Assembly: GCA_021818685.1 (NCBI GenBank)
Contig: JAKATP010000014.1
Span: 1 to 38,513, forward strand
DNA length: 38,513 nt
Direction of reading: 5' to 3'
From: Bacillota bacterium
GTDB taxonomy: Bacteria > Bacillota > Sulfobacillia > Sulfobacillales > JAIMBI01
Shown piece by piece: positions 8,697-21,730 of this stretch. A program made the position numbers and the translations under genes. The notes beneath the pieces were generated by a model that was not told the DNA's origin, made no database searches, and saw only the letters and a program-made list of their open reading frames with translations. Numbering within the stretch: position 1 is the first letter of the stretch; each line of letters begins with the position of its first letter.

Positions 8697-9485
8697 ATGA
8701 GCTCGAGGACATCGATGACGGATGATGCGGTCCGAATTGCCGTTCCCATCCGACGCGGTCTGTCAGAGTACGAGCCCGCGATTGTCGACTTGGTGAACGC
8801 CTTTGCAGAGCGGGCGCTATCCGCGCTGGCGGCGGCGGGCGCGGAGGTGCTGGTGGTGGCTGCGGATGACTTTGAGGAAGGGCGCAGCCCCTGGCGCTCG
8901 GAGTTTGATGGGCTCCTGCTCCTCGGGGGCGGGGATGTCGACCCCGGCCTCTATGGGGATCCGGTGCGGCATCCGACGTTATGGGGCGTAAACGAACAGG
9001 TCGACCGATTCGAGCTCTCTTTGGTGCGTGCGGCCCAGGACGCTAAAGTACCGACCTTCGGCATCTGCCGCGGGCTCCAGGTGCTGAACGTGGCGCGCGG
9101 GGGCACGTTGTTGCAACATCTCCCCGACGCGCCGCTGGCACACCGGGGCCTCCCACCAGGTCCGCCCATGGCGGAACACGCGGTCCGTATTGCCTCCGAC
9201 TCCGAAATCGGCCGGGCACTCGGCGTGAGCACCGCCACCGTGCGCACCGGTCATCACCAGGGCATCGACCGCATCGGGACCGGACTGAGGCCGGTCGCGT
9301 GGGCCGCCGACGGCCTGGTGGAAGCACTCGAGGAGGCCGGGACCGGCACGTTTGGGGTGCAATGGCACCCGGAAGACCCGGCGGCCGACGCCGAACCCCT
9401 CGCGCGACTCTGCCGCTACTTCGTCGGCCGGGTTTATGCCGTTAAGCGTGGGGATGGGCCGCCTAACACTCCTCCGCCGGCGTGA
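8697..9485 (+). CDS. Gamma-glutamyl-gamma-aminobutyrate hydrolase-like protein (class I glutamine amidotransferase, peptidase C26)
   Basis: LLLGGGDVDPGLYGD, FGICRGLQVLNVARGGTLLQHL (nucleophile elbow), GTFGVQWHPEDPA; ATG at 8697 in the 8631 frame. Confidence 0.9.
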   Translation: MSSRTSMTDDAVRIAVPIRRGLSEYEPAIVDLVNAFAERALSALAAAGAEVLVVAADDFEEGRSPWRSEFDGLLLLGGGDVDPGLYGDPVRHPTLWGVNEQVDRFELSLVRAAQDAKVPTFGICRGLQVLNVARGGTLLQHLPDAPLAHRGLPPGPPMAEHAVRIASDSEIGRALGVSTATVRTGHHQGIDRIGTGLRPVAWAADGLVEALEEAGTGTFGVQWHPEDPAADAEPLARLCRYFVGRVYAVKRGDGPPNTPPPA

Positions 9486-9888
9486 AGGCCGGCAGGACGA
9501 CATCCCCCTCTTCAATCCATGTGACGGTGACGCGCTGACCGATGCGAAGGGCCGACGGGTCGGTCGTGATAATTTCGGAAAACATGCGAAAGCCCTCGTC
9601 CAGATCCACGAGGGCCACCGCCACCGGAAGCCGCGCGCGGAAGGCGGGATGGCTGTGCTGGCGCATGACGGTGACGCTGTAGATGAGACCCCGCCCCTCG
9701 GAGTCGTGCCACTGAAGCTCGGTCGCCGTACAGCGCGTGCAGTGCGAGCGCGGGTAGAACACGATGGCGCCGCAGCTCCGACAGGTCTGATAGGAGAGAC
9801 GGTGCTCACGGCATCGCGCGTAGAAGGGCTCCGTGTCGGGCTCCGGAAACCGCGGCACTGGTCGGGCGGGCTCGATGTCAGATGCCAT
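9463..9888 (-). CDS. DUF35 Zn-ribbon / OB-fold protein
   Basis: CRSCGAIVFYPRSHCTRC zinc ribbon followed by an OB-fold-like region (GLIYSVTVMRQHSHPAFRARLPVAVALVDLDEGFRMFSEI); adjacent to a thiolase-like gene, the usual pairing. Confidence 0.92.
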   Translation of the reverse strand: MASDIEPARPVPRFPEPDTEPFYARCREHRLSYQTCRSCGAIVFYPRSHCTRCTATELQWHDSEGRGLIYSVTVMRQHSHPAFRARLPVAVALVDLDEGFRMFSEIITTDPSALRIGQRVTVTWIEEGDVVLPAFTPAEEC

Positions 9889-9893
9889 GGTGC

Positions 9894-11087
9894 TTAATCC
9901 CTCCCCAAAATGATGGTGGATGCGGCATGGCGCGTGCCCAACTGGCCCCCGTTGCCGTGCGCGACGGCATATCGGGCGTCCGGTACCTGGCTTGTGGAGT
10001 CACCGCGGAGCTGACGGACCGCCTCGATGAGCAGGAACAGACCGCGCATGCCGGGGTGGTTCGATGAGAGCCCGCCTCCATCGGTATTGAGGGCGGGACC
10101 GCCCGGGCGGTCAAACCGGAGGCGGCCCCCGGCGACGTAGGCCCCGCCCTCTCCTTTGGCACAAAAGCCCAGGTCCTCCAGAATAGCCAGGACCGTGATG
10201 GTAAAAGAGTCGTAGATCATGGCGATATCCATGTCCTCCGGGCGGAGTCCTGCCTGTGCAAAAGCGATCGGGCCCGACTGTGCCCCCGCCGTCACCGTGA
10301 TGTCCCGTGCGTTTTCGGGGTATCCCACGGCCTCCCCGCTGCCGAGGAGCCACACGGGCCGGTGGCGGGTGTCACGGGCCACCGCCGCATCGGCGATGAC
10401 GACGGCGCCGCCGCCGTCGGACACCATGCAGCAGTCAAGCAGATGGAGCGGGTCCGCAATCAAGCGGGAGCCGGTCACGTCGCCGGTCGTAATCTCGCGG
10501 ATGTCCCGGAAATGGAGCGCCTCAAGCGCCCGCACGGCCTCGGGATTCCGCATGGCATGGTAGCGGGTCGTCACGGCAATCTCGGCCAGCTCCTCGGCTG
10601 TGGTACCGTACTGGTGCATGTGGCGCGCCGCCACGAGCGCGTAGCTCCCGATGAGGGTGAGACCCCAGGGAGTCTCCATGTTGGCAGCCGGTGTGGGGCG
10701 GTCAAGGCGCGGGCCCCCGATGCCCGACGGCATGCGGCTGTCGCTTTTAGCCGTCGATCCGTACGTGAGGAGCGCGACCCGGGCCTTTTTTTCCCGGATC
10801 GCGGCCAGTGCATGGGCGGCATGAAATTCGTAGGAGCTTCCCCCCACCCCGGTCCCGTCCACCACCCGCGGGTGCAGATTCAAGTATTCCGCCATCACGA
10901 CGCCGGCCATGCCCGGCGTCGTCTCTCCCGCATCGTAAAGCGCGTCCACATCGCTCCACCCGAGCCCTGCATCCTCCAGGGCGCGGGCTGCCGAGTGCGC
11001 CTTTATCTGCATGGCGCTTACTCCCTCCACCTTGCGGTCGGGGTACTCGTGGATCCCCACGATGGCCGCCGTCCTGTCGCTCGCCAT
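9894..11087 (-). CDS. Thiolase-like / lipid-transfer protein (SCP-x / Ltp2-like superfamily)
   Basis: AIVGIHEYPDRKVEG, GGSSYEFHAAHALAAIREKKARVALLTYGSTAKS, MIYDSFTITVLAILEDLGFCAKGEGGAYV, AHGNGGQLGTRHAASTIIL. Confidence 0.92.
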   Translation of the reverse strand: MASDRTAAIVGIHEYPDRKVEGVSAMQIKAHSAARALEDAGLGWSDVDALYDAGETTPGMAGVVMAEYLNLHPRVVDGTGVGGSSYEFHAAHALAAIREKKARVALLTYGSTAKSDSRMPSGIGGPRLDRPTPAANMETPWGLTLIGSYALVAARHMHQYGTTAEELAEIAVTTRYHAMRNPEAVRALEALHFRDIREITTGDVTGSRLIADPLHLLDCCMVSDGGGAVVIADAAVARDTRHRPVWLLGSGEAVGYPENARDITVTAGAQSGPIAFAQAGLRPEDMDIAMIYDSFTITVLAILEDLGFCAKGEGGAYVAGGRLRFDRPGGPALNTDGGGLSSNHPGMRGLFLLIEAVRQLRGDSTSQVPDARYAVAHGNGGQLGTRHAASTIILGRD

Positions 11088-11091
11088 GGTC

Positions 11092-13254
11092 CTACCTCCC
11101 TCCCGCCTGTGGGTCCTCTTCCTCGAAGACCATCAGAGCGTCCAGAATCTCGATCACGCGTCCGGATACATAAAGCGGGTTCACCTCGAGCGCCAAGAGC
11201 CGCGGCCCGAACCCGAGTGCCGTCGCCGCGATGTCGGCGATGACAAGCGCCAGCTGGTTCATGTCCGCCGCTTCGCCGCCCCGCACACCCTCGAGGAGGG
11301 CCTGTCCCCGCAGTTCGGCCAACATCCGTCGGACCTCTGCGGCCGTTACCGGCAAGAGGCGAAGGGCACGATCCTGCAGAACTTCCACCAGCACGCCTCC
11401 GGTGGCGACGGTAAGAACCGGTCCCCAGCTCGGATCCCGGGTCACGCTGACCAGAAGCTCGGTCCCGCCGGAGCGCATAGGGGACACCACCACGCCGCCC
11501 AGCACCGCATCTGGTCGCGCCGCAGTCACGTGTTGCACGATGTCCTGGTACGCGGCAGCGACTTCTGTGGGACCGCGAAGGTTAAGTCGTACACCGCCCA
11601 CGTCCGTCTTGTGCAGCAGGCCATCGGCCGCCGCCTTGAGTGCGACGGGGCCGCCGAATTGAGCCGCCGCCTGAACGGCCTCGGTGGCGGAGTGCGCGAG
11701 CTGGCTTGGGACCAGGGGCAGACCCCACGACTGCAGGAGGCCGCGGGCCGCCTGTTCTCCGAGGACACCCGCGGGGAAACCCTCCGGTGACGCCCCCCGG
11801 ACCGTCGGCGCCGCGTTATCCGTGGGCGGCCGGTGCGCGATCTCACGCCACCAGAGCGCGTGCCCGAGAGCCGACATGCCATGCTCGATACCTCCCAGAG
11901 GCCGCAGGTGAAGGACGTCTGCCCACCCGGCCCCTTCCTGGGGGATGTCCTGGAGGGTCTGGGTGGCCGGATACACGGGATGGGGCGAGCGTGCGGCAAT
12001 GGCCGCGAGCGCCTCCCACTGCGCCTTCAGACGGCTGTTCTCGTTGCCCTCCGTCGGCACGCTTAAGAAGGTCAGGAGAAAGTCGAAGGCCGGGTCGTCG
12101 ACGGCGATGCCTAGGGCGCGTTCGGTCAGGCTCCCGTCCACGACCACGTAACCCGTGACATCCAGGGGATTGTGCGCGCTGCCAAACGACGGCAGCAGCT
12201 CCGTGAGCCGCGCCCGGGTGGCCGCGGAAAAATCCGGAAGTTCAACGCCTTCTGCAGCCGCCCGGTCGGCCAGGATCTCCGAGGCCCCGCCCGACGCGGT
12301 AATCACCCCCGCCCGCGGTCCCGGAGGCGCTCCGTAGTATCCGAGGAAGCCAGCCGTCACCATGAGATCCTCAAAGGAGCGCACCCGGATGACGCCTGCG
12401 GACCGAAACGCTGCGTCATTGACCGCGTCGTCGCCCACGAGGGCACCCGTATGCAAAAGCGCCGTACGGCGGCTCACGGCCGTCTGCCCGACTTTGAGGA
12501 CCACCACCGGCTTTTGAGCCGCCAGGGCCTCCCGGGCTACCCGCAAGAAACGCCGCGGATCCCGGATAGATTCGAGAAAGAGGGCAATCACGCGGGTTTG
12601 GGGGTCATGCACCAGATAGTCCATGACGTCCGTGGCCGTGATCTGCATCTCGTTGCCCATCGAACAGAGAAGAGATAACCCCATCGCATGCTGGCGCACA
12701 AACGACACGGCGGTCGAGGCCAGCGCCCCGCTCTGGAGCATGACGCCGATAGGCCCGGACCGAAGCGGGGGGGTGATGGGGAGGCCATAGGGCACGATAC
12801 CGGCCGGGGCATTAATGAAACCGTTCCCATTCGGACCCAACACGGTGATCGCGTGGGCGTCCGCAAACGTTTGCAGCGCCATCTGCCGTCGCACGCCCTC
12901 CTCCCCCACCTCCCCGTAACCAGCCGTTAGCACGACGGCGTTTCGGATGTGAAGCTCGGCCGCCTCCTCCATGACCGACATCACAGCGGTGGTCGGAACC
13001 ATGACGTAAACCAGGTCCGGGGGCTCCGCGATGTCGGACAGGCGCCGCACGGCCGGGACGCCATGCACGATTTCACGCACAGGGTGCACGAGATGCACCG
13101 GGCCCGGAAACCCTCCCTGGCGAAGATTGTGATAGGTGTTGCTGGACCAGCGGGAGTTGTCCGTGGCCCCCACCAGCGCAATGGAGCGGGGATGGAACAG
13201 GGCTCTTAGTGCCGACCTGCGGTCGGCCGCCGTCGCGTCCGTTAAGTCCGCCAT
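11092..13254 (-). CDS. Acyl-CoA synthetase (NDP-forming), fused alpha/beta subunits
   Basis: 720 aa; CoA-binding N-terminus (ALFHPRSIALVGATDNSRW), HTGALVGDD region, ATP-grasp C-terminus (ALKAAADGLLHKTDVGGVRLNL, LALEVNPLYV). Confidence 0.93.
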   Translation of the reverse strand: MADLTDATAADRRSALRALFHPRSIALVGATDNSRWSSNTYHNLRQGGFPGPVHLVHPVREIVHGVPAVRRLSDIAEPPDLVYVMVPTTAVMSVMEEAAELHIRNAVVLTAGYGEVGEEGVRRQMALQTFADAHAITVLGPNGNGFINAPAGIVPYGLPITPPLRSGPIGVMLQSGALASTAVSFVRQHAMGLSLLCSMGNEMQITATDVMDYLVHDPQTRVIALFLESIRDPRRFLRVAREALAAQKPVVVLKVGQTAVSRRTALLHTGALVGDDAVNDAAFRSAGVIRVRSFEDLMVTAGFLGYYGAPPGPRAGVITASGGASEILADRAAAEGVELPDFSAATRARLTELLPSFGSAHNPLDVTGYVVVDGSLTERALGIAVDDPAFDFLLTFLSVPTEGNENSRLKAQWEALAAIAARSPHPVYPATQTLQDIPQEGAGWADVLHLRPLGGIEHGMSALGHALWWREIAHRPPTDNAAPTVRGASPEGFPAGVLGEQAARGLLQSWGLPLVPSQLAHSATEAVQAAAQFGGPVALKAAADGLLHKTDVGGVRLNLRGPTEVAAAYQDIVQHVTAARPDAVLGGVVVSPMRSGGTELLVSVTRDPSWGPVLTVATGGVLVEVLQDRALRLLPVTAAEVRRMLAELRGQALLEGVRGGEAADMNQLALVIADIAATALGFGPRLLALEVNPLYVSGRVIEILDALMVFEEEDPQAGGR

Positions 13255-13268
13255 CGGCCGTCTCCCCC

Positions 13269-14468
13269 CTAGCTGCGCTGGTCGCGCGGAAGCCCGAGCA
13301 CGCGCTCCGCGATGACGTTTCGCTGGATCTGGGAGGTGCCGGCAAAAATGGTCTCCGCCCGCGCCTGAAAGAAGGCCCGGTGCAGGGTGCCCCCGCCCAC
13401 ACTGTCCATTCCGCTCGCATACGGCATCGCGGCCCCCAGGATGTCCATCCCCAAGTCGCCGAGCCGCTTGTGCATCTCACTGTAGAAGAGCTTCAGCATG
13501 GAGGCCTCGGGTCCCAGCTTGTCCTGCTGCTGGAGCTGCGTAATGACGTTGTAGCCATGAAAGCGTAGGATCTGAATCTCGGACCATAGGGCCACCAGCC
13601 GCTGGCGGAAGTGACTATCCTCGATAAGCGGTCCCCGCTCGCCCGTCTGGGTCCGGGCGGCCTCCACGGCTGCCTCCCACTCGCGCATGAAGTGGGCGTA
13701 GCGGCCTACAATGGTAACGCCACGCTCGAACGAGAGAATGGTGTTAGCCACGCGCCAGCCATCGTTCACCTGCCCCACGACGTTTTCACGGGCGGTGCGC
13801 GCCCCGTCGAACGAGACCTGGTTGAAATGGGCTTCCCCGGTTAACTGCACCAGGGGTTCCACCTTCACCGCGGGCTGCCGCATGGGCACCAGCAGGAACG
13901 TGATGCCGCGGTGCTTGGGCACGGTCGGGTCGGTCCGCGCCAGCACAAAGCACCAATCTGCCAGATGTGCGTTCGATGTCCAGATTTTCTGTCCGGTGAT
14001 GACCCAAACGTCTCCTTGAAGTTCGGCCCGCGTGCGCAGGGAGGCGAGGTCCGAGCCGGAATTCGGCTCCGAGTAGCCCTGACACCAGACTTCGTCGCCC
14101 GCCAGGAGCGGAGGGAGGAAGCGGCGCTTTTGTTCATCGGTACCCTCCACCAGCAGGGTGGGGCCTAAAAGGCCCTTCCCGAGACCATTGATGCCGGAGG
14201 GGGCGCCAGCGCGTGCGCATTCCTCGGCGAAGATGACCTCCTCGACCCAAGAAAGGCCCTGCCCGCCATACTCTCGGGGCCACGACAGACCGGCCATGCC
14301 GTGCGCGTAGAGGGTCTTCTCCCACCAGAGCCCGACCCGCGCCCGTTCCTCGGCGTCGGCCGGAACCGGGTGGGCGGGTGTACCCCATCCTGGTGGCAGC
14401 ACCGTTTCCAGGAAGTCCCGGCACCGGATCCGAAACGCCTCTTCCGCCTCCGTGTAGGCAATATTCAC
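13269..14468 (-). CDS. Acyl-CoA dehydrogenase
   Basis: EEVIFAEECARAGAP, WCQGYSEPNSGSDLASLRTRAELQGDVWVITGQKIWTSNAHLADWCFVLART, TIFAGTSQIQRNVIAERVLGLPR. Confidence 0.95.
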   Translation of the reverse strand: MNIAYTEAEEAFRIRCRDFLETVLPPGWGTPAHPVPADAEERARVGLWWEKTLYAHGMAGLSWPREYGGQGLSWVEEVIFAEECARAGAPSGINGLGKGLLGPTLLVEGTDEQKRRFLPPLLAGDEVWCQGYSEPNSGSDLASLRTRAELQGDVWVITGQKIWTSNAHLADWCFVLARTDPTVPKHRGITFLLVPMRQPAVKVEPLVQLTGEAHFNQVSFDGARTARENVVGQVNDGWRVANTILSFERGVTIVGRYAHFMREWEAAVEAARTQTGERGPLIEDSHFRQRLVALWSEIQILRFHGYNVITQLQQQDKLGPEASMLKLFYSEMHKRLGDLGMDILGAAMPYASGMDSVGGGTLHRAFFQARAETIFAGTSQIQRNVIAERVLGLPRDQRS

Positions 14469-15619
14469 GCGTCTCCTCCTCCCACCGGCGCGCCTACCCG
14501 GCGGGGTGTAGCCCCGTCCAGCACCACGCGCGCCATTTTCTCCCGGATCTGAACCGGGGTGCCGAGTTCAGCGGCGATTCGCCACCCGCGCTTGAAGTAC
14601 AGATGCATGTCGCTATCCCAGGTGTAGCCGATGCCACCGTGTAGCTGAATGGCATCACTCGTGACCGTACGCGCGGTATCGGACGCGTAGGCTTTGGCCA
14701 GGGCGGCGTACAATTCGGCCTCGGCGCCGCCCTGGGAGATCGCCCAGGCGGCGTAGCGGTTCGCCACCCGTGCACTTTCCACCAGCAGATAGTCGTCGGC
14801 CGCCGTATGCTTGACCGCCTGGAAGCGGCCGACCGGCTGGCCGAACTGCTCGCGCACCTTCACGTACTCGACCGTCGCCGAGAACGCCTGTTCGGCGGCC
14901 CCGAGCGCTTCGGAGGCCAGGGCGGACCAGGCGGTGATCCGCATCTCCTCGAAAAGCTCCCTTCCGTAGCCAATCACGGCATCGTCCGCCAGCACTGCCC
15001 CGTGAAACTCGAGGGCATAAAGCGGGTAGGACCCGTCAAGGCTCTCAAGTGCCACCATCTCGGTGCCGGCCGCACGCGGATCCACCAGGACCAGGGCAAT
15101 ACCGCCCGCCTGCTTCCACTCCACCGGCATCACGACCACGGTGGCGGCGGCGGCGTACGGGACAAACGTGCGCCGCCCGTACAGCCGGACCGGTCCCGAG
15201 CCCACCGCCTGCACGCCGGCTCCCGTCCAGAGCCCGTCCGGACTTCCCCACGCCACGGTGGCCGTCTCGCCGCCGGCGGCCAGCGCCGGACCCAGGCGCT
15301 CCTGCCGCGGGGATGCTGGCCGACGCGAAAGGGCCCGCGCAGCCACGTACGTCTCCAGCAAAGGAAAGGGCAGAAGTGCCGCCCCGCTGGCCTCAAAGAT
15401 GAGGGCCATATCAAGGGGGCTCAGAGCACTTCCTCCCTGCTCCTCGGGGACGCCGGCACCGAGCATCCCCTGCTCCGCCAAGGGGCCGCGCAGGCGCTCG
15501 ACCACTGCGGATTTCTCCCGATACGCGCTGCGCGCGCCCGCCGGGCCCGCGATGGCCGAAAAGAGATCGCGGGCGGCGTCGCGCAGCAGATATTGCTCGG
15601 ATGAAAAATTGAAGTCCAT
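14465..15619 (-). CDS. Acyl-CoA dehydrogenase (second, partner-type)
   Basis: MDFNFSSEQYLLRDAARDLFS, YVKVREQFGQPVGRFQAVKHTAADDYLLVESAR, SDAIQLHGGIGYTWDSDMHLYFKRGW; 4-bp overlap with the next acyl-CoA dehydrogenase. Confidence 0.94.
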   Translation of the reverse strand: MDFNFSSEQYLLRDAARDLFSAIAGPAGARSAYREKSAVVERLRGPLAEQGMLGAGVPEEQGGSALSPLDMALIFEASGAALLPFPLLETYVAARALSRRPASPRQERLGPALAAGGETATVAWGSPDGLWTGAGVQAVGSGPVRLYGRRTFVPYAAAATVVVMPVEWKQAGGIALVLVDPRAAGTEMVALESLDGSYPLYALEFHGAVLADDAVIGYGRELFEEMRITAWSALASEALGAAEQAFSATVEYVKVREQFGQPVGRFQAVKHTAADDYLLVESARVANRYAAWAISQGGAEAELYAALAKAYASDTARTVTSDAIQLHGGIGYTWDSDMHLYFKRGWRIAAELGTPVQIREKMARVVLDGATPRRVGAPVGGGDA

Positions 15620-15631
15620 GCGTCCCCTCCC

Positions 15632-16405
15632 CTAATGTCCGAGGAACGTTACCCCACGCTTCTCCACCTGGGCCGCGAGCGCCTCTCGATGATCGTGACT
15701 GTCATGCAGGGATTCCGTGGCCCGCCCCTCGGCCGCCATGGCTGCCCGAAGGCCGAGCGCCGACGAGCCGCGCACCAGATCGCGGGCGAGGCGGATCGCG
15801 GCCGTAGGCCCTTGAGCGAGGCGTCTGGCCCACTCCTCCACCGTCGGCCAAAAGTCGTCCTCGCCCGTCAGCACATGCACGAGGCCCATGCGGGCCGCTT
15901 CCTGGGCGGCCACCTCCCGCCCCGTGATGATCATTTCTAGTGCGCGCGCTTCCCCGACAATACGCGGCAGGAGCCAGGTACCCCCGACGTCGGGAGGGAT
16001 CGCGAGACGAATGTACGCCTCCGAGAAGACGGCCCGGGGATGCGCGATGCGGATATCCGAGGCCAGCGTAAAGTCGCAGCCGGCACCATACGCGAGGCCG
16101 TTCACCGCCGCAATCTTGGGTACGGGAAATTCGTAGTACGCCACCATCAGCGCATGAGCCAGGTCGGCCCACGAAGGCGCATCGGGGTCATTGACCGTCG
16201 ACGCCCATTCCTTCACGTCGGCCCCCGCCGAGAAAGCCCGGCCGGTCCCGGTCAGGACGATGGCGCGGACCTCCTGGTCACGAAATCGGGCCAGTGCCCC
16301 CTGAAACTGGCGCAGAACGTCAACAGACAGGGCATTCAAGCGCTCTGGGCGGTTGAGCCGCAGTACCCCGACTTGGTCTTTCACCTCAATGTCGACAAAC
16401 GCCAT
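15632..16405 (-). CDS. Enoyl-CoA hydratase/isomerase (crotonase) family protein
   Basis: GRAFSAGADVKEW, AAVNGLAYGAGCDFTLASDIRIA, FSEAYIRLAIPPDVGGTWLLPRIVGEARALEMIITGR. Confidence 0.93.
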   Translation of the reverse strand: MAFVDIEVKDQVGVLRLNRPERLNALSVDVLRQFQGALARFRDQEVRAIVLTGTGRAFSAGADVKEWASTVNDPDAPSWADLAHALMVAYYEFPVPKIAAVNGLAYGAGCDFTLASDIRIAHPRAVFSEAYIRLAIPPDVGGTWLLPRIVGEARALEMIITGREVAAQEAARMGLVHVLTGEDDFWPTVEEWARRLAQGPTAAIRLARDLVRGSSALGLRAAMAAEGRATESLHDSHDHREALAAQVEKRGVTFLGH

Positions 16406-18513
16406 CAGCTGCTCCTTTCTCGTGCCGCCGGCGCCTCCTCGAGGAGGAGGACGTCGGCGGCCACCGCCCCCTCACCCACCCTTCCAACCAACAGCGGGTT
16501 CACGTCCACGGTGATCCGCCGTTCGCGGTGATGTCCCAAAAAGTCGGACAGCGCCACCACGGCCCTTATGAGTGCGTCGACGTCATAGCCCGCGCGACCG
16601 CGATAGCCCGCGAGGATCCGGCTCCCCCGCGTCTCCGACAGCGCCTGGCGCACCTCCTCCGGAGACGCGCCGATCAAAACGGGGACCGTGTCCCGCCAGA
16701 TCTCCACGTCAACACCCCCGAGGCCCGTCACCAGGACCCCGCTCACGGTCGAGCCGCCGACGAACCATTCCAGGCGCCGAGGCAGGTACGCCTCCACCAG
16801 AAATCTGCCCGCCCCGAGGCCGGCGTTTTGAAGCCGGCGCCCCATCTCACGCGCCGCCTGCACGAGCTCGGCCTCAGAGCCCAGGTCGACCACCACCGCA
16901 CCCACGTCAGACTTGTGCCGGATGTGCAGGGCTTTCAGTACGACCGGATAGCCCACCGCGGCTCCAGCGCGCGCCACGTCCGCCAGCGAGCCGGCGCGCG
17001 CTCCGGGCGGATGACACAGGCCCCAGGCGGCGAGCGTCTCCTTGGCCTCCCACTCGTCCCACGGGCCCTCCGCGAGCGGACCCGCGGCACTCGGGAGGCG
17101 CTTCCGCGGAGGGACCCAGGATACGGCCTCGCGCCCGACGCGCGTCACCTCGGCGAGGGCCGCCATGGTGGGACGGAGGCCGGCAAACACCTGGACGCCC
17201 ACATCCCGCGCCCGGTGATAGTAGCGGTCCGGCACGCCGCCCATCGTGGTCATGACCAGCACCGGTTTTCCGGTGCGGTGATGCGCGTGGGCCGCACCGT
17301 CCATCATCGTCTCCCACGGCCCCACGTGGTCCGGGTTACCGGGAAAGTCCTGCACGACCCCCAACAGGTCCACTTGGGCGTCAGCCGCGATGCCTGTCAC
17401 CACCGTCGTGTAGGGCTCCTCGGTACCCCAGGTGCTGGCCCCGTAATCGAGCGGATTCTGCGGGTGCACGTAGACCGGCAGGGCCTCCTCCAGGCGCGCC
17501 CGGCTCTCTTCGGTGAGTTCCGCCAACTGCACTCCTAAGCTGTCGGCCAAGTCGGCCATGAGTCCACACTCGCCGCCGGAACTAGCTGCGAGGCCCACCT
17601 GGAGACGTCCCGGCTCTCCTATCCGCGCCAATAGCTTCAAGGTGGCCACAAACTCTTCCAGATCCCCTGCTTCGGCGAAGGGCACCCGCCTGCGCATCGC
17701 CCTCCACCACTCGTCCCCGGCGGCCAGAGCACCCGTGTGGGCCTGGGCCATCGCCCGTCCAAGCGCGCTCCGCCCGAGGTGGAGCACGCACAGCGGCTTT
17801 CCCGCCCGCCGGGCTTTCTCGGCCATGGCCAGAAACCCGTCCGCATCCGGCCGGCCCTCGATGATGGCGCCCAGAACGTGCACCTCCTCGCGCGGCAGGA
17901 GCCACTCGAGAAACTCCATGGGGCTCACACCCCAGTGATTGCCGGAGGAGATGACATAACTGAAGGCCTGCCCTACGAAGCAGTTGACGAGATGGTTCGC
18001 GAGATTGCCGCTCTGCGACACCACGGCCGCCCCCGCGGCCATAAAAGGCCGCTCGGGCAGACCGATGGACCACGCCCCGGTCAGGCCACCCGCCATCCCC
18101 ACGTATCCGAGACAGTTCGGGCCCAGCACGGCCACACCCGATCCCCGTGAAATCTCCTCGATACGGCCCCGATAGACGTCAGGAACATCCGCAGCCAGGA
18201 CGATGGCCCCGCCGGCGCCTGCCGCCTGGGCCTCCTCCAGGACTGTGAGCACCGCCGATCCGGGCGTGGCAACCACCACCAGATCGACCGCTTCCGGGAG
18301 TTCGCGGAGGCTCGGAAAACACGGATGGCCGGCGACTTCCTGGTAACGGGGATTCACCCCATAGAGGCGCCCCTGCCAGCTGCGCCGAGCCAGGTTTCCC
18401 AGGATACGCATCCCGTAGCGCGAGTTGGGCGACGCCCCCACTACCGCCACCGACGAGGGTGTCAGGAGACGGGTGAGCTGGCGCGCGCGGTCAGACTCCA
18501 CCGCCGCCCTCAC
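16405..18513 (-). CDS. Acyl-CoA synthetase (NDP-forming), second paralogue
   Basis: 702 aa; LTPSSVAVVGASPNSRYGMRILGNL, VAVLGPNCLGYVG, AHTGALAAGDEWW, ATP-grasp VVLKALHIRHKSDVGAVVVDLG, ITVDVNPLLVG. Confidence 0.93.
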   Translation of the reverse strand: MRAAVESDRARQLTRLLTPSSVAVVGASPNSRYGMRILGNLARRSWQGRLYGVNPRYQEVAGHPCFPSLRELPEAVDLVVVATPGSAVLTVLEEAQAAGAGGAIVLAADVPDVYRGRIEEISRGSGVAVLGPNCLGYVGMAGGLTGAWSIGLPERPFMAAGAAVVSQSGNLANHLVNCFVGQAFSYVISSGNHWGVSPMEFLEWLLPREEVHVLGAIIEGRPDADGFLAMAEKARRAGKPLCVLHLGRSALGRAMAQAHTGALAAGDEWWRAMRRRVPFAEAGDLEEFVATLKLLARIGEPGRLQVGLAASSGGECGLMADLADSLGVQLAELTEESRARLEEALPVYVHPQNPLDYGASTWGTEEPYTTVVTGIAADAQVDLLGVVQDFPGNPDHVGPWETMMDGAAHAHHRTGKPVLVMTTMGGVPDRYYHRARDVGVQVFAGLRPTMAALAEVTRVGREAVSWVPPRKRLPSAAGPLAEGPWDEWEAKETLAAWGLCHPPGARAGSLADVARAGAAVGYPVVLKALHIRHKSDVGAVVVDLGSEAELVQAAREMGRRLQNAGLGAGRFLVEAYLPRRLEWFVGGSTVSGVLVTGLGGVDVEIWRDTVPVLIGASPEEVRQALSETRGSRILAGYRGRAGYDVDALIRAVVALSDFLGHHRERRITVDVNPLLVGRVGEGAVAADVLLLEEAPAARERSS

Positions 18514-19768
18514 CTTCTGCGACGGAATCAGCCGTCGGCCAGGCGGTCAGAATTGGTCGCACGGCCTCGAAGAAGGCATCCGGCTGCTCCCACTGGCAAA
18601 AGTGGGCCGCACGCGCGATGACCCGTTGGGCGACACCAGGCAGCACGCGTGCGCACGCCGCCGCCCATTCTGCCACCGAGGGTTGGCAGAAGGCATCTCC
18701 CTCTCCCCACACCATCAACGCCGGGATGCCCGACAGCCGCTCCACGACTTCCAGCATCGGCATGAGATTCGGGGTGGCCCGAAGGCGACGGGGACTGAGG
18801 CGCGTAAAAAACACACTCTTGTACGTCATGGCCACGAGCCGGTCGTCCACGACGCTCGGATCCGCCACGTGCCAGCGGCGAAGGTTGTCGGCCAGCACCG
18901 CGAGTCGATCTTCCAGGCTCGAAGGGTGGACAAAATGCCGCTCGTCTACGCGGTGATGCGTCGCAGGATCGCCCGTCCGGCCCACCAGCGACACCAGGAG
19001 CAGCGCCCGCACCAAGTCCGGGTCCGCGATCGCGAGGCGCGCTGCCAGGCTGGCGCCGAAGGAATAGCCGCCGAGCACTACCGGCGGAGTCACCAGAGTG
19101 CGGATGGCGCGTCCCAGAAGTTTCAGATACGCCTTGTGCGAGAAGTCGCCTGGCACATCGTCGGAGTCGCCGAAACCTGGCAGATCAATCGCGTACACGT
19201 CGGCCGCTGTGGCCAGCTGGTCGAGGTTGCGGCGCCAGTGGGTCCAGTCCCCATACGCCCCATGCAGGAGGATCAGGGGTGCCCCCGGGCCCTTCCGGTG
19301 GACCCCGGCCACCCGCACGCCGTCGATGTTCACCGTGAAAGCTGCCTCGACGTGCGTCGGCGAGAGCAACTCCACGGCCAGGTCATCAAGCGTCCGGTCG
19401 AGAGCCGCCGCCGGATGCGCTTCGGGACGCCGTTCGCGCACGACCCGGGCGGCATCCGCCCGGGAAAGACCCGACAGCATGAGATACAAGATAGCCACGG
19501 CCGCGGTTCTGGAAACCCCGGCCTGGCAGTAGATTCCCACCGTCTCGCCGGCGGCGGCCAGCACCTGCACCCGACGCGCCGCCGCCAGCAGCATTTCGTG
19601 CTGCCCATCGCGCAGATCCGCAAGCGGAAAATGCTCCACGGGCACCCGGTACGCGGGCGGGGTCGTCTCGCCCCGCAAATCCAATAATCGGGTCACGCCC
19701 TCCGCCATCATGGCAGGCCCATCGCCCGAGTCGCCAAGATAGACGGACGGGTTAAGTCGGGTAAGCAG
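18491..19768 (-). CDS. Fusion protein: N-terminal dual-specificity phosphatase-like domain + C-terminal alpha/beta hydrolase
   Basis: DSP region VYLGDSGDGPAMMAEGVTRLLDLRGE...FPLADLRDG...IYCQAGVSRTAAVAILYLMLSGLSRADAARVVRERRPEA (C-X5-R); hydrolase region LILLHGAYGDWTHW, GGYSFGASLA nucleophile, GEGDAF, RAAHFCQWEQPDAF. The tracked ORF starts at 19711; a CTG at 19768 with GGAGGAGGAGACGGT upstream extends the DSP N-terminus in frame. Confidence 0.85.
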   Translation of the reverse strand: MLTRLNPSVYLGDSGDGPAMMAEGVTRLLDLRGETTPPAYRVPVEHFPLADLRDGQHEMLLAAARRVQVLAAAGETVGIYCQAGVSRTAAVAILYLMLSGLSRADAARVVRERRPEAHPAAALDRTLDDLAVELLSPTHVEAAFTVNIDGVRVAGVHRKGPGAPLILLHGAYGDWTHWRRNLDQLATAADVYAIDLPGFGDSDDVPGDFSHKAYLKLLGRAIRTLVTPPVVLGGYSFGASLAARLAIADPDLVRALLLVSLVGRTGDPATHHRVDERHFVHPSSLEDRLAVLADNLRRWHVADPSVVDDRLVAMTYKSVFFTRLSPRRLRATPNLMPMLEVVERLSGIPALMVWGEGDAFCQPSVAEWAAACARVLPGVAQRVIARAAHFCQWEQPDAFFEAVRPILTAWPTADSVAEGEGGGGV

Positions 19769-19837
19769 ACCGTCTCCTCCTCCAGCTCACGTCTTAAACC
19801 AGCCTTAGCCGGGAGCGTCTTCGAGGCCCGCACCCTG

Positions 19838-20593
19838 TTACGGGCCGCCCCGGACATAGATGACCTGTCCGGTCACATAGGCTGCTTCCTCCGAGCACAA
19901 GAACGCCACCACGTTGGCGATGTCGCGAGGCTGACCGACCCGGCGCAGGGGGATGCGGGCGGAGGCGGCCGTCTTCGAGGCCTCGAAGTCGAGTCCCTGT
20001 CGTTCAGCCGTGGCTCGCGTCATGTCCGTCTCGATAAAGCCGGGGGCCACGGCGTTGACGTTGATGTTGAACGGGCCCAGTTCAATGGCGAGGGTCTTGG
20101 TGAACCCCTGCAGGCCAGCCTTGGCGGTTGAGTAGTTGGCCTGGCCACGATTTCCGAGGGCTGAGGTCGAAGATGTATTGACAATCTTCCCCCAGCGCTG
20201 CTCCACCATGTAGCGCTGCGCCGCCCGCGAGCACAAGAACGTGCCTTTCAAGTGGGTCGCCATGACCAGATCCCAATCATCATCCGTCATCTTGAACAAC
20301 AGATTGTCGCGCAGGATGCCGGCGTTGTTGACCAGAACCCCGATGGGACCGAGGCGCGTCGCGCACGCTTCCAGCGCTTTATCCACCTGGGCCCGATCCG
20401 TCACGTCCGCGACCAGTCCCTCCGCATGCCCGCCCCTTTCACGAATCCGGCGCACAGTCTCGGCTACGTCCTCCTCTCGGAGGTCGAGCACAGCGACGCC
20501 GGCCCCCTCCTCCGCCAATCGCTCGGCCTCCGCCCGGCCGATGCCCCGCCCTGCCCCGGTGACCACCGCCACCCGCCCGTCGAGCTGCCCCAT
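19838..20593 (-). CDS. SDR oxidoreductase, 3-oxoacyl reductase (FabG-like)
   Basis: VAVVTGAGRGIGRAEAERLAEEG, LVNNAGILRDNLLFKMTDDDWDLVMATHLKGTF, IVNTSSTSALGNRGQANYSTAKAGLQGFTKTLAIEL, VAPGFIETDMT. Confidence 0.95.
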   Translation of the reverse strand: MGQLDGRVAVVTGAGRGIGRAEAERLAEEGAGVAVLDLREEDVAETVRRIRERGGHAEGLVADVTDRAQVDKALEACATRLGPIGVLVNNAGILRDNLLFKMTDDDWDLVMATHLKGTFLCSRAAQRYMVEQRWGKIVNTSSTSALGNRGQANYSTAKAGLQGFTKTLAIELGPFNINVNAVAPGFIETDMTRATAERQGLDFEASKTAASARIPLRRVGQPRDIANVVAFLCSEEAAYVTGQVIYVRGGP

Positions 20594-20649: not shown

Positions 20650-21036
20650 AAGCTGACTCCGCCTGTCCGGTCACGACCCTCAAGCCGCGCCCGTCGTGAG
20701 AGCCATGGCCAGCGTGGTCTGGGTGCGCGCCCGCCTGCACGCTGTCCGTCACCCGCGCGGCCATGCCGATCTGTTGCCGGGACGAACCTTCGCCCGAAAC
20801 CTTCCACCGTATTTGTCAACGCGCCCATCGGCGGGAAGGGTTGCGGTCCGATCGCGCGCGCTGAGGCCCACATTCAGCATCCCCGGGGCCATCATCACCC
20901 CGTGGAGCCCAAATGCGCGCGCCGGCTTCTCGTCATCGTGAATAGGGTCGCAGTCGCCCGAAACCCTGAGGCAACGCACCCGCCGCTCGTGCGCAATGTC
21001 GTGCCAATATGGCCCCAGACGTTCCCCCACCTTCAT
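20650..21036 (-). pseudogene. MaoC-like dehydratase (hydratase motif half), frameshifted
   Basis: ORF 20749..21036 has MKVGERLGPYWHDIAHERRVRCLRVSGDCDPIHDDEKPARAFGLHGVMMAPGMLNVGLSAR...FRAKVRPGN then stops. Another frame continues a MaoC-like C-terminus (IGMAARVTDS...GLRVVTGQAE). Confidence 0.75.
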
Positions 21037-21479
21037 CGTGGGGCCTCGTTGGTGACGATGGGGCCCGTCCGCGCGCGAACGGCGGTCATCTCATCGTGGT
21101 TCGCACCCTCTGTCGGCCCTGTGACCAGGGTCATGCGGTCCCAACTTCCGCTCCGCACCCGGGGGTGTTTGAGCCAGCGTCTCACGGAGATGTGAGCGTG
21201 AGCCACGATCGGGGCACCGTGAACGACAGGCCGCAGATCGTGGATCGTGCCTGCGCGCGGCATCATGCGACAAAAAGGGGGATTCCGTCCGAGCGTGCCC
21301 GCGAACGTGGGAGGCGCCCGCCGGCTCCGATAGCCGGCGGTGCGCCCAGCCTCTTCGTCCAGACAACAGGCTTCGGTGTCCGCGTGAGCCAGAGCCAAGC
21401 GCCGCACCGCACCCTTTTCGGTCTCGGTTAACACGGGTTGTGGCCGAAGGTCCATCGAAGTCTCGTCCACCGCAAACAT
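21033..21479 (-). pseudogene. MaoC/FAS1-like dehydratase N-terminal-type protein, degenerate
   Basis: ORF 21033..21536; TETEKGAVRRLALAHADTEACCLDEEAGRTAGYRSRRAPPTFAGTLG and RSGSWDRMTLVTGPTEGANHDEMTAVRARTGPIVTNEAP resemble MaoC_dehydrat_N, with a scrambled middle. ATGA overlap with the next ORF is retained. Confidence 0.65.
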
Positions 21480-21730
21480 GGCGGCCCCTTTCCCGGGTCG
21501 AAACCCCCGAGGGCCTCTCAAGGAGGCGACTGGCACGCGGGACGCGAATCTGGGATCCTGAATCGGTGAATCAAAGGCGGTATCATCATGCGGGCCGCTC
21601 CAAACGCGTAGCCGTCCCCGCTGGAGATGGGCATGGATGCCGCTCGGTTTGATGTTAGCATGAGAGATTCAGGAGGGAACGGAACGGGCTCACGCCCGCC
21701 CGAAACATCTCGCGACCAGGAGGAATCGTG

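Follow-up and report, generated by a model that had tools for sequence, protein, structure and literature searches.

Chains that pair a phosphatase with an alpha/beta hydrolase are, to our knowledge, known mainly from soluble epoxide hydrolase (mammalian EPHX2), which combines a HAD-type phosphatase with a hydrolase that uses an Asp nucleophile. That enzyme carries an N-terminal phosphatase and a C-terminal alpha/beta hydrolase in one chain and works in lipid metabolism, and its phosphatase half has been described as poorly examined (PMC10433125). The same layout, made from unrelated parts, is found in the bacterial protein studied here, the product of a gene that fuses a dual-specificity phosphatase (DSP) domain to an alpha/beta hydrolase. 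The gene lies on contig JAKATP010000014.1 of the Bacillota assembly GCA_021818685.1, of which the whole 38,513-nucleotide stretch analysed is called the window. The fusion has DSPc and a Ser nucleophile (GYSFG) where soluble epoxide hydrolase has HAD and Asp, so the shared layout would be convergent; the hydrolase half gives a weak sequence match to the soluble epoxide hydrolase structure 1cqz. No description of a DSP-alpha/beta-hydrolase fusion was found in the open-access literature, in line with a preliminary description of this DNA that knew of no such system. The fusion is thus apparently undescribed, while phosphatase-hydrolase fusion as a kind is already known from soluble epoxide hydrolase.

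Other described proteins resemble the fusion or its surroundings. The atypical DUSPs (DUSP28, DUSP10, DUSP14) are like the window's DSP in fold and P-loop, DUSP28 also in having Tyr before the Cys, but they are eukaryotic and lack a hydrolase domain. Bacterial DSPs share a chain with a domain of metabolic or binding function in PTP-NADK (PF22741), ADP-ribosylglycohydrolase-DSP and CBM20-DSP proteins; partners differ among the DSP fusions met in Pfam and in our phylum samples, and none is an alpha/beta hydrolase. Two of these come from the sample of the phylum to which a Streptomyces genome belongs: L057 (310-1833) joins an ADP-ribosylglycohydrolase (PF03747, 177.8 bits) to a DSP-like domain whose DSPc score, 32.1 bits, falls just below the cut-off, and L059 (520-1731) joins a CBM20 starch-binding domain to a DSP, i.e. 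the laforin layout in a bacterium. In RsbQ-RsbP an alpha/beta hydrolase works with a phosphatase, as here, but as two proteins, with a PPM phosphatase and a PAS sensor. The operon around the fusion shares a dehydrogenase pair, MaoC hydratase, thiolase-fold aldolase and ChsH2-type OB domain with the steroid and bile-acid side-chain systems (ChsE-ChsH1/H2-Ltp2; Shy-Sal), in whose clusters we know of no DSP-hydrolase.

The gene and its parts are as follows, in window coordinates:
18491..19768, minus strand: DSP-alpha/beta-hydrolase fusion gene, 425 codons and stop (reading frame, Pfam, alignment)
19774..19783, minus strand: ribosome-binding site GGAGGAGGAG, at a spacing of 5 nt from the CTG (sequence)
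19766..19768, minus strand: CTG, the probable start codon, also present in the sister genome G001; codons 1-19 are under purifying selection
19364..19768, minus strand: N-terminal DSP domain, residues 1-135 (Pfam DSPc, PDB profile match, AlphaFold/Foldseek)
19616..19618, minus strand: D51, candidate general acid, invariant in all six intact-site members
19505..19531, minus strand: P-loop Y80-T88, YCQAGVSRT, with C81 and R87 (alignment)
18545..19342, minus strand: C-terminal alpha/beta hydrolase domain, residues 143-408 (Pfam Abhydrolase_6 and Abhydrolase_1; boundaries from alignment)
19061..19063, minus strand: S236, nucleophile (GYSFG), invariant in seven fusions
18695..18697, minus strand: D358, catalytic acid, invariant in seven fusions
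18602..18604, minus strand: H389, catalytic base, invariant in seven fusions

One frame does join the two domains, as had been described: Pfam DSPc and Abhydrolase_6 both score above their cut-offs, and every quoted motif is present in the 425-residue product, namely FPLADLRDG (D51), YCQAGVSR (C81-R87) and the DSP tail AILYLM...ADAARVVRERRP in the phosphatase half, and GYSFG (S236), GEGD (D358) and AAH (H389) in the hydrolase half. The frame, on the minus strand (a point that the preliminary description did not give), closes with a stop at 18491-18493 and stays open for 425 codons up to 19768. It is not a chance one, because its probability at the local composition is ~7e-5 and other species keep it as a single protein. 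A sequencing or frame artefact was likewise discarded, six genomes having full-length fusions.

A DSP fold for the N-terminal half is supported by profiles and by a predicted structure. Pfam DSPc (PF00782) gives 42.1 bits on the window product against a cut-off of 33.5; a profile built from six DSP domains has PDB entry 2hcm as its best match (E 4.8e-13), then DUSP28, with PDB DSPs aligned along the whole domain. An AlphaFold model of residues 1-136 (two-sequence input, pLDDT 78) has the DSP strands and helices, and Foldseek matches it to DUSP10, 14, 28 and others at probability 1.00, with TM 0.73-0.82 among the matches listed, which answers an earlier reservation that structure prediction might reveal some other fold. 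The loop has the form Cys-x5-Arg-(Ser/Thr) (C81-x5-R87-T88), and D51, 30 residues N-terminal of C81, is the putative acid. The six intact-site members share C81, R87, D51 and most of the P-loop without change; in them 12 of 13 positions in residues 80-92 are invariant versus 34 of 120 elsewhere in the domain (p ~1e-5); catalysis therefore seems to be selected wherever the motif is kept.

The fold of the hydrolase half rests on sequence profiles (Abhydrolase_6, 78.2 bits against a cut-off of 26.3), which are accompanied by a Ser elbow and an Asp and His completing the triad; a whole-protein AlphaFold model from three sequences had a mean pLDDT of 48.5 and was not used. The preliminary description had allowed for C-C bond hydrolysis, an option that found no specific support: scores for the meta-cleavage hydrolases BphD and HsaD were 36 and 42.3 bits, against family cut-offs of 462 and 400.

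Seven fusions are spread over six genomes within the window's order, a group related to Sulfobacillus, against one stand-alone DSP, so homologues do not always keep the domains as separate genes. The full-length relatives are in the sister genome G001 (80% identity) and in G039, G037, G009 and G010 (44-49%), and the window's own genome has a second copy (G000:C199, ~40%). Between the window and G001, its nearest relative, dN/dS is 0.14 for the DSP and 0.09 for the hydrolase. Of 42 genomes in the order, the DSP-half profile matches 7; it adds only one weak match (G130, 44 bits) among 154 genomes of the class, and gives weak short matches (29-45 bits) in samples of ~400 genomes each from the window's own phylum and from that of the Streptomyces genome; none of the five such matches whose long frames were read has a hydrolase partner. 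A scan of viral contigs found no DSP. On plasmids, hydrolase matches are plentiful but none spans 80% of the protein, and the DSP is not matched at all; the three nearest plasmid hydrolases have genes for an acyl-CoA dehydrogenase, a CoA ligase or an enoyl-CoA hydratase close by, which pointed to no function. A contig scan by short peptide patterns returned only the sister metagenome-assembled genome and a Streptomyces hydrolase, and it missed relatives found otherwise, so its silence means little. With the order well covered and other groups thinly, the fusion is evidently real and conserved, and known from one order within the sampled genomes.

The two halves evidently evolve separately, and their link would be useful, not obligatory. 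A small number of genomes, several in draft form, underlie the co-occurrence, tree and dN/dS results. Two fusions have lost the DSP site, G000:C199 (VFSETSGPSR in its place) and G010 (ICGHGQKDA); Pfam DSPc is not detected in either, and all three hydrolase residues are retained. In G010 a hormone-sensitive-lipase-type esterase (L036, 9461-10471) directly follows the fusion, a hint that esters may enter the pathway. The converse case is G002, where a lone 146-residue DSP with an intact site is flanked by dehydrogenase genes, immediately preceded by an orthologue (70%) of the large acyl-CoA dehydrogenase of the window's operon (ACADlarge); a hydrolase would not fit into the 81 nt that separate this DSP from the gene after it. 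Most branches stay unresolved in the domain trees, which are short, but the G002 DSP groups with those of the window and G001, among fusions (support 94/94), which suggests that G002 lost its hydrolase half.

Intact DSPs also keep company with the small acyl-CoA dehydrogenase of the operon (ACADsmall). Pfam DSPc hits exactly 6 of the 42 order genomes, once each and always in a DSP of the fusion family; an ACADsmall orthologue (53% identity or more) occurs in exactly those six and in none of the 36 others, a coincidence with a chance of ~1 in 5 million were the two unlinked. G010, with its wrecked DSP, has no ACADsmall orthologue. The intact DSP is thus no less closely associated with the dehydrogenase pair than with the hydrolase. 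Since nature supplies variants that lack either half, the role of a phosphatase inside acyl-CoA degradation can be asked directly.

The preliminary description had placed the gene in an acyl-CoA degradation operon, and rightly: CoA ligases, the dehydrogenase pair, a hydratase and an aldolase adjoin it, with gaps of -23 to 69 nt between successive genes from the SDR to the OB_ChsH2 protein.
20749..21536, minus strand: remains of a MaoC hydratase pair (comparison with the sister genome)
19838..20593, minus strand: SDR, FabG-like, upstream gene (Pfam/family profiles)
16405..18513, minus strand: NDP-forming acyl-CoA synthetase, overlapping the fusion gene by 23 nt (Pfam)
15632..16405, minus strand: enoyl-CoA hydratase/isomerase family (Pfam)
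14465..15619, minus strand: acyl-CoA dehydrogenase, small partner, ACADsmall (Pfam/family profiles, PDB matches)
13269..14468, minus strand: acyl-CoA dehydrogenase, large partner, PimC-like, ACADlarge (Pfam/family profiles)
11092..13254, minus strand: second NDP-forming acyl-CoA synthetase (Pfam)
9894..11087, minus strand: thiolase-fold protein like the Ltp2/Sal aldolases (PDB 9myr and 6ok1 among the best matches)
9463..9888, minus strand: OB_ChsH2/zf-ChsH2 (DUF35-type) partner (both ChsH2 Pfam domains)

The small dehydrogenase matches Tcur3481 (6wy8) and 4x28 in the PDB, which are heteromeric steroid dehydrogenases, and the thiolase-fold protein matches 4u4e, 9myr and 6ok1, the last of which is Ltp2. 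Both Ltp2 and Sal catalyse retro-aldol reactions and have a DUF35 (OB) protein as binding partner (PMC11321319). These profile matches support a steroid-side-chain-like acyl-CoA module, probably for bulky acyl-CoA compounds. The similarity to steroid systems is moderate, and an alicyclic or branched acyl-CoA would be as likely a substrate as a steroid, because Sulfobacillus produces omega-alicyclic and branched fatty acids (PMC4378227). Four loci (G000:C199, G009, G037, G039) retain the order MaoC-MaoC2-fusion-ACADsmall-ACADlarge, and the window and G001 have the same module genes with insertions. The window's MaoC pair is 53% and 45% identical to that of the sister genome, versus 79-94% for neighbouring operon genes, and its second MaoC has in-frame stops; the pair is by all appearances eroding in the window copy, an intact one being present at G000:C199. 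In the second copy of the module (L033, 7108-7818) an acyl-CoA synthetase is cut after ~149 residues and followed directly by the rest of the OB_ChsH2 gene, an apparent deletion of the thiolase-fold gene between them.

We give an even chance to the reading that the fusion is a bifunctional phosphatase and serine hydrolase serving one acyl-CoA pathway, with both activities and their substrates predicted. That pathway would be a CoA-linked one that breaks down bulky acyl compounds, whether branched, alicyclic or steroid-like. With its S236-D358-H389 triad, the C-terminal half would be a serine hydrolase, most probably with esterase or thioesterase activity, that supplies the pathway with acids or releases products from it; the N-terminal half would be a Cys-dependent phosphatase with C81 as nucleophile, R87 binding phosphate and D51 as general acid, its job tied to the acyl-CoA dehydrogenase pair. 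The phosphate might be removed from a pathway substrate (compare the lipid-phosphatase half of soluble epoxide hydrolase) or from the dehydrogenase or hydratase proteins. A more specific version, which we put forward tentatively, has a eukaryote-like DSP dephosphorylating a CoA-pathway metabolite or the dehydrogenase and so gating the dehydrogenase step, with the serine hydrolase acting on the same substrate chain, in convergence with soluble epoxide hydrolase. Several observations pull the other way. The operon contains no kinase; common descent and operon co-inheritance explain part of the co-occurrence of DSPc with ACADsmall; and in G002 the ACADsmall orthologue is on contig C2, the DSP on C19. 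The missing site in two of the seven fusions means that phosphatase activity is dispensable in some of them: the earlier label 'bifunctional' is plausible, but it is not general. Finally, Tyr80 replaces the usual His before the catalytic Cys of the window protein. DUSP28 has Tyr there too, and the change is not the cause of its low activity, which is governed by Asn105 and Arg107 (PMC5679558); in our alignment these correspond to Ala83 and Val85 (position 85 being Val, Leu or Asn in the family). Because the Tyr is not to blame in DUSP28 and the low-activity residues are replaced here, the DSP site is expected to be competent, although the DUSP28 result is no proof for the window protein.

The two copies with dead sites bear on most of the alternatives. 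One alternative, less likely than our main reading, is that the DSP half acts as a pseudo-phosphatase: it would do no phosphate chemistry and would serve for binding or docking, recruiting the hydrolase to the dehydrogenase complex. In both copies the DSP site is destroyed with the hydrolase triad intact, and their branches measure 2.4 (G000:C199) and 2.2 (G010) in the DSP tree versus 0.62 and 0.73 in the hydrolase tree. Such fast change resembles lost constraint, however, not a kept scaffold, and the invariance of the catalytic residues in the other six members fits a docking role badly. The same copies count towards hitch-hiking, i.e. a fusion without joint function whose DSP is being lost piecemeal, since among the eight loci one has lost its hydrolase and two have a ruined DSP site; we regard this as quite improbable, given the low dN/dS of both domains between window and sister and the confinement of intact DSP and ACADsmall to the same six genomes. 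An RsbQ-RsbP-like signalling pair, in which the hydrolase would control the phosphatase output by converting a small molecule, has a precedent in that joining of alpha/beta hydrolase and phosphatase (PMC3183031), and a phosphatase within a catabolic operon suggests regulation. It fits poorly, because each half persists without the other (the hydrolase beside a dead DSP, the DSP alone in G002); the fusion also lacks any sensor domain, PAS included, RsbP belongs to the PPM phosphatases and not to the DSPs, and we think this unlikely. The lone DSP of G002, standing beside an acyl-CoA dehydrogenase, also weakens the phospho-regulated hydrolase of the preliminary description.

The least probable alternative, which we consider very improbable, is that the Cys-x5-Arg loop serves a different Cys chemistry, of persulfide or rhodanese type; the same has been suggested for DSP-like BLH domains that occur in fusion with metallo-beta-lactamases. 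In favour of this alternative, the rhodanese loop resembles that of DSPs, and Sulfobacillus acidophilus oxidises mineral sulfides (PMC3558970). Against this, neither the BLH-type phosphatase-like domain (PF04273) nor rhodanese gave a Pfam match on the fusion at E 0.001, the fold and Asp loop are of DSP type, and no sulfur gene was recognised among the operon genes scanned.

The start of the gene deserves attention, as only a non-standard codon gives the whole DSP domain. If only ATG, GTG and TTG are allowed, the start is at 19711, inside the domain and with none in frame earlier, and the first DSP strands are lost. The CTG at 19766-19768 is the probable start, and it is well supported because a ribosome-binding site precedes it, the sister genome has the same CTG with an in-frame stop two codons upstream, codons 1-19 are under purifying selection (dN/dS ~0.1, window versus G001), and the other relatives start with ATG or GTG no more than one alignment position away. 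A long plus-strand open frame at 18425-19687 is taken as the antisense shadow of the gene. Gene callers restricted to ATG, GTG and TTG will clip the DSP domain.

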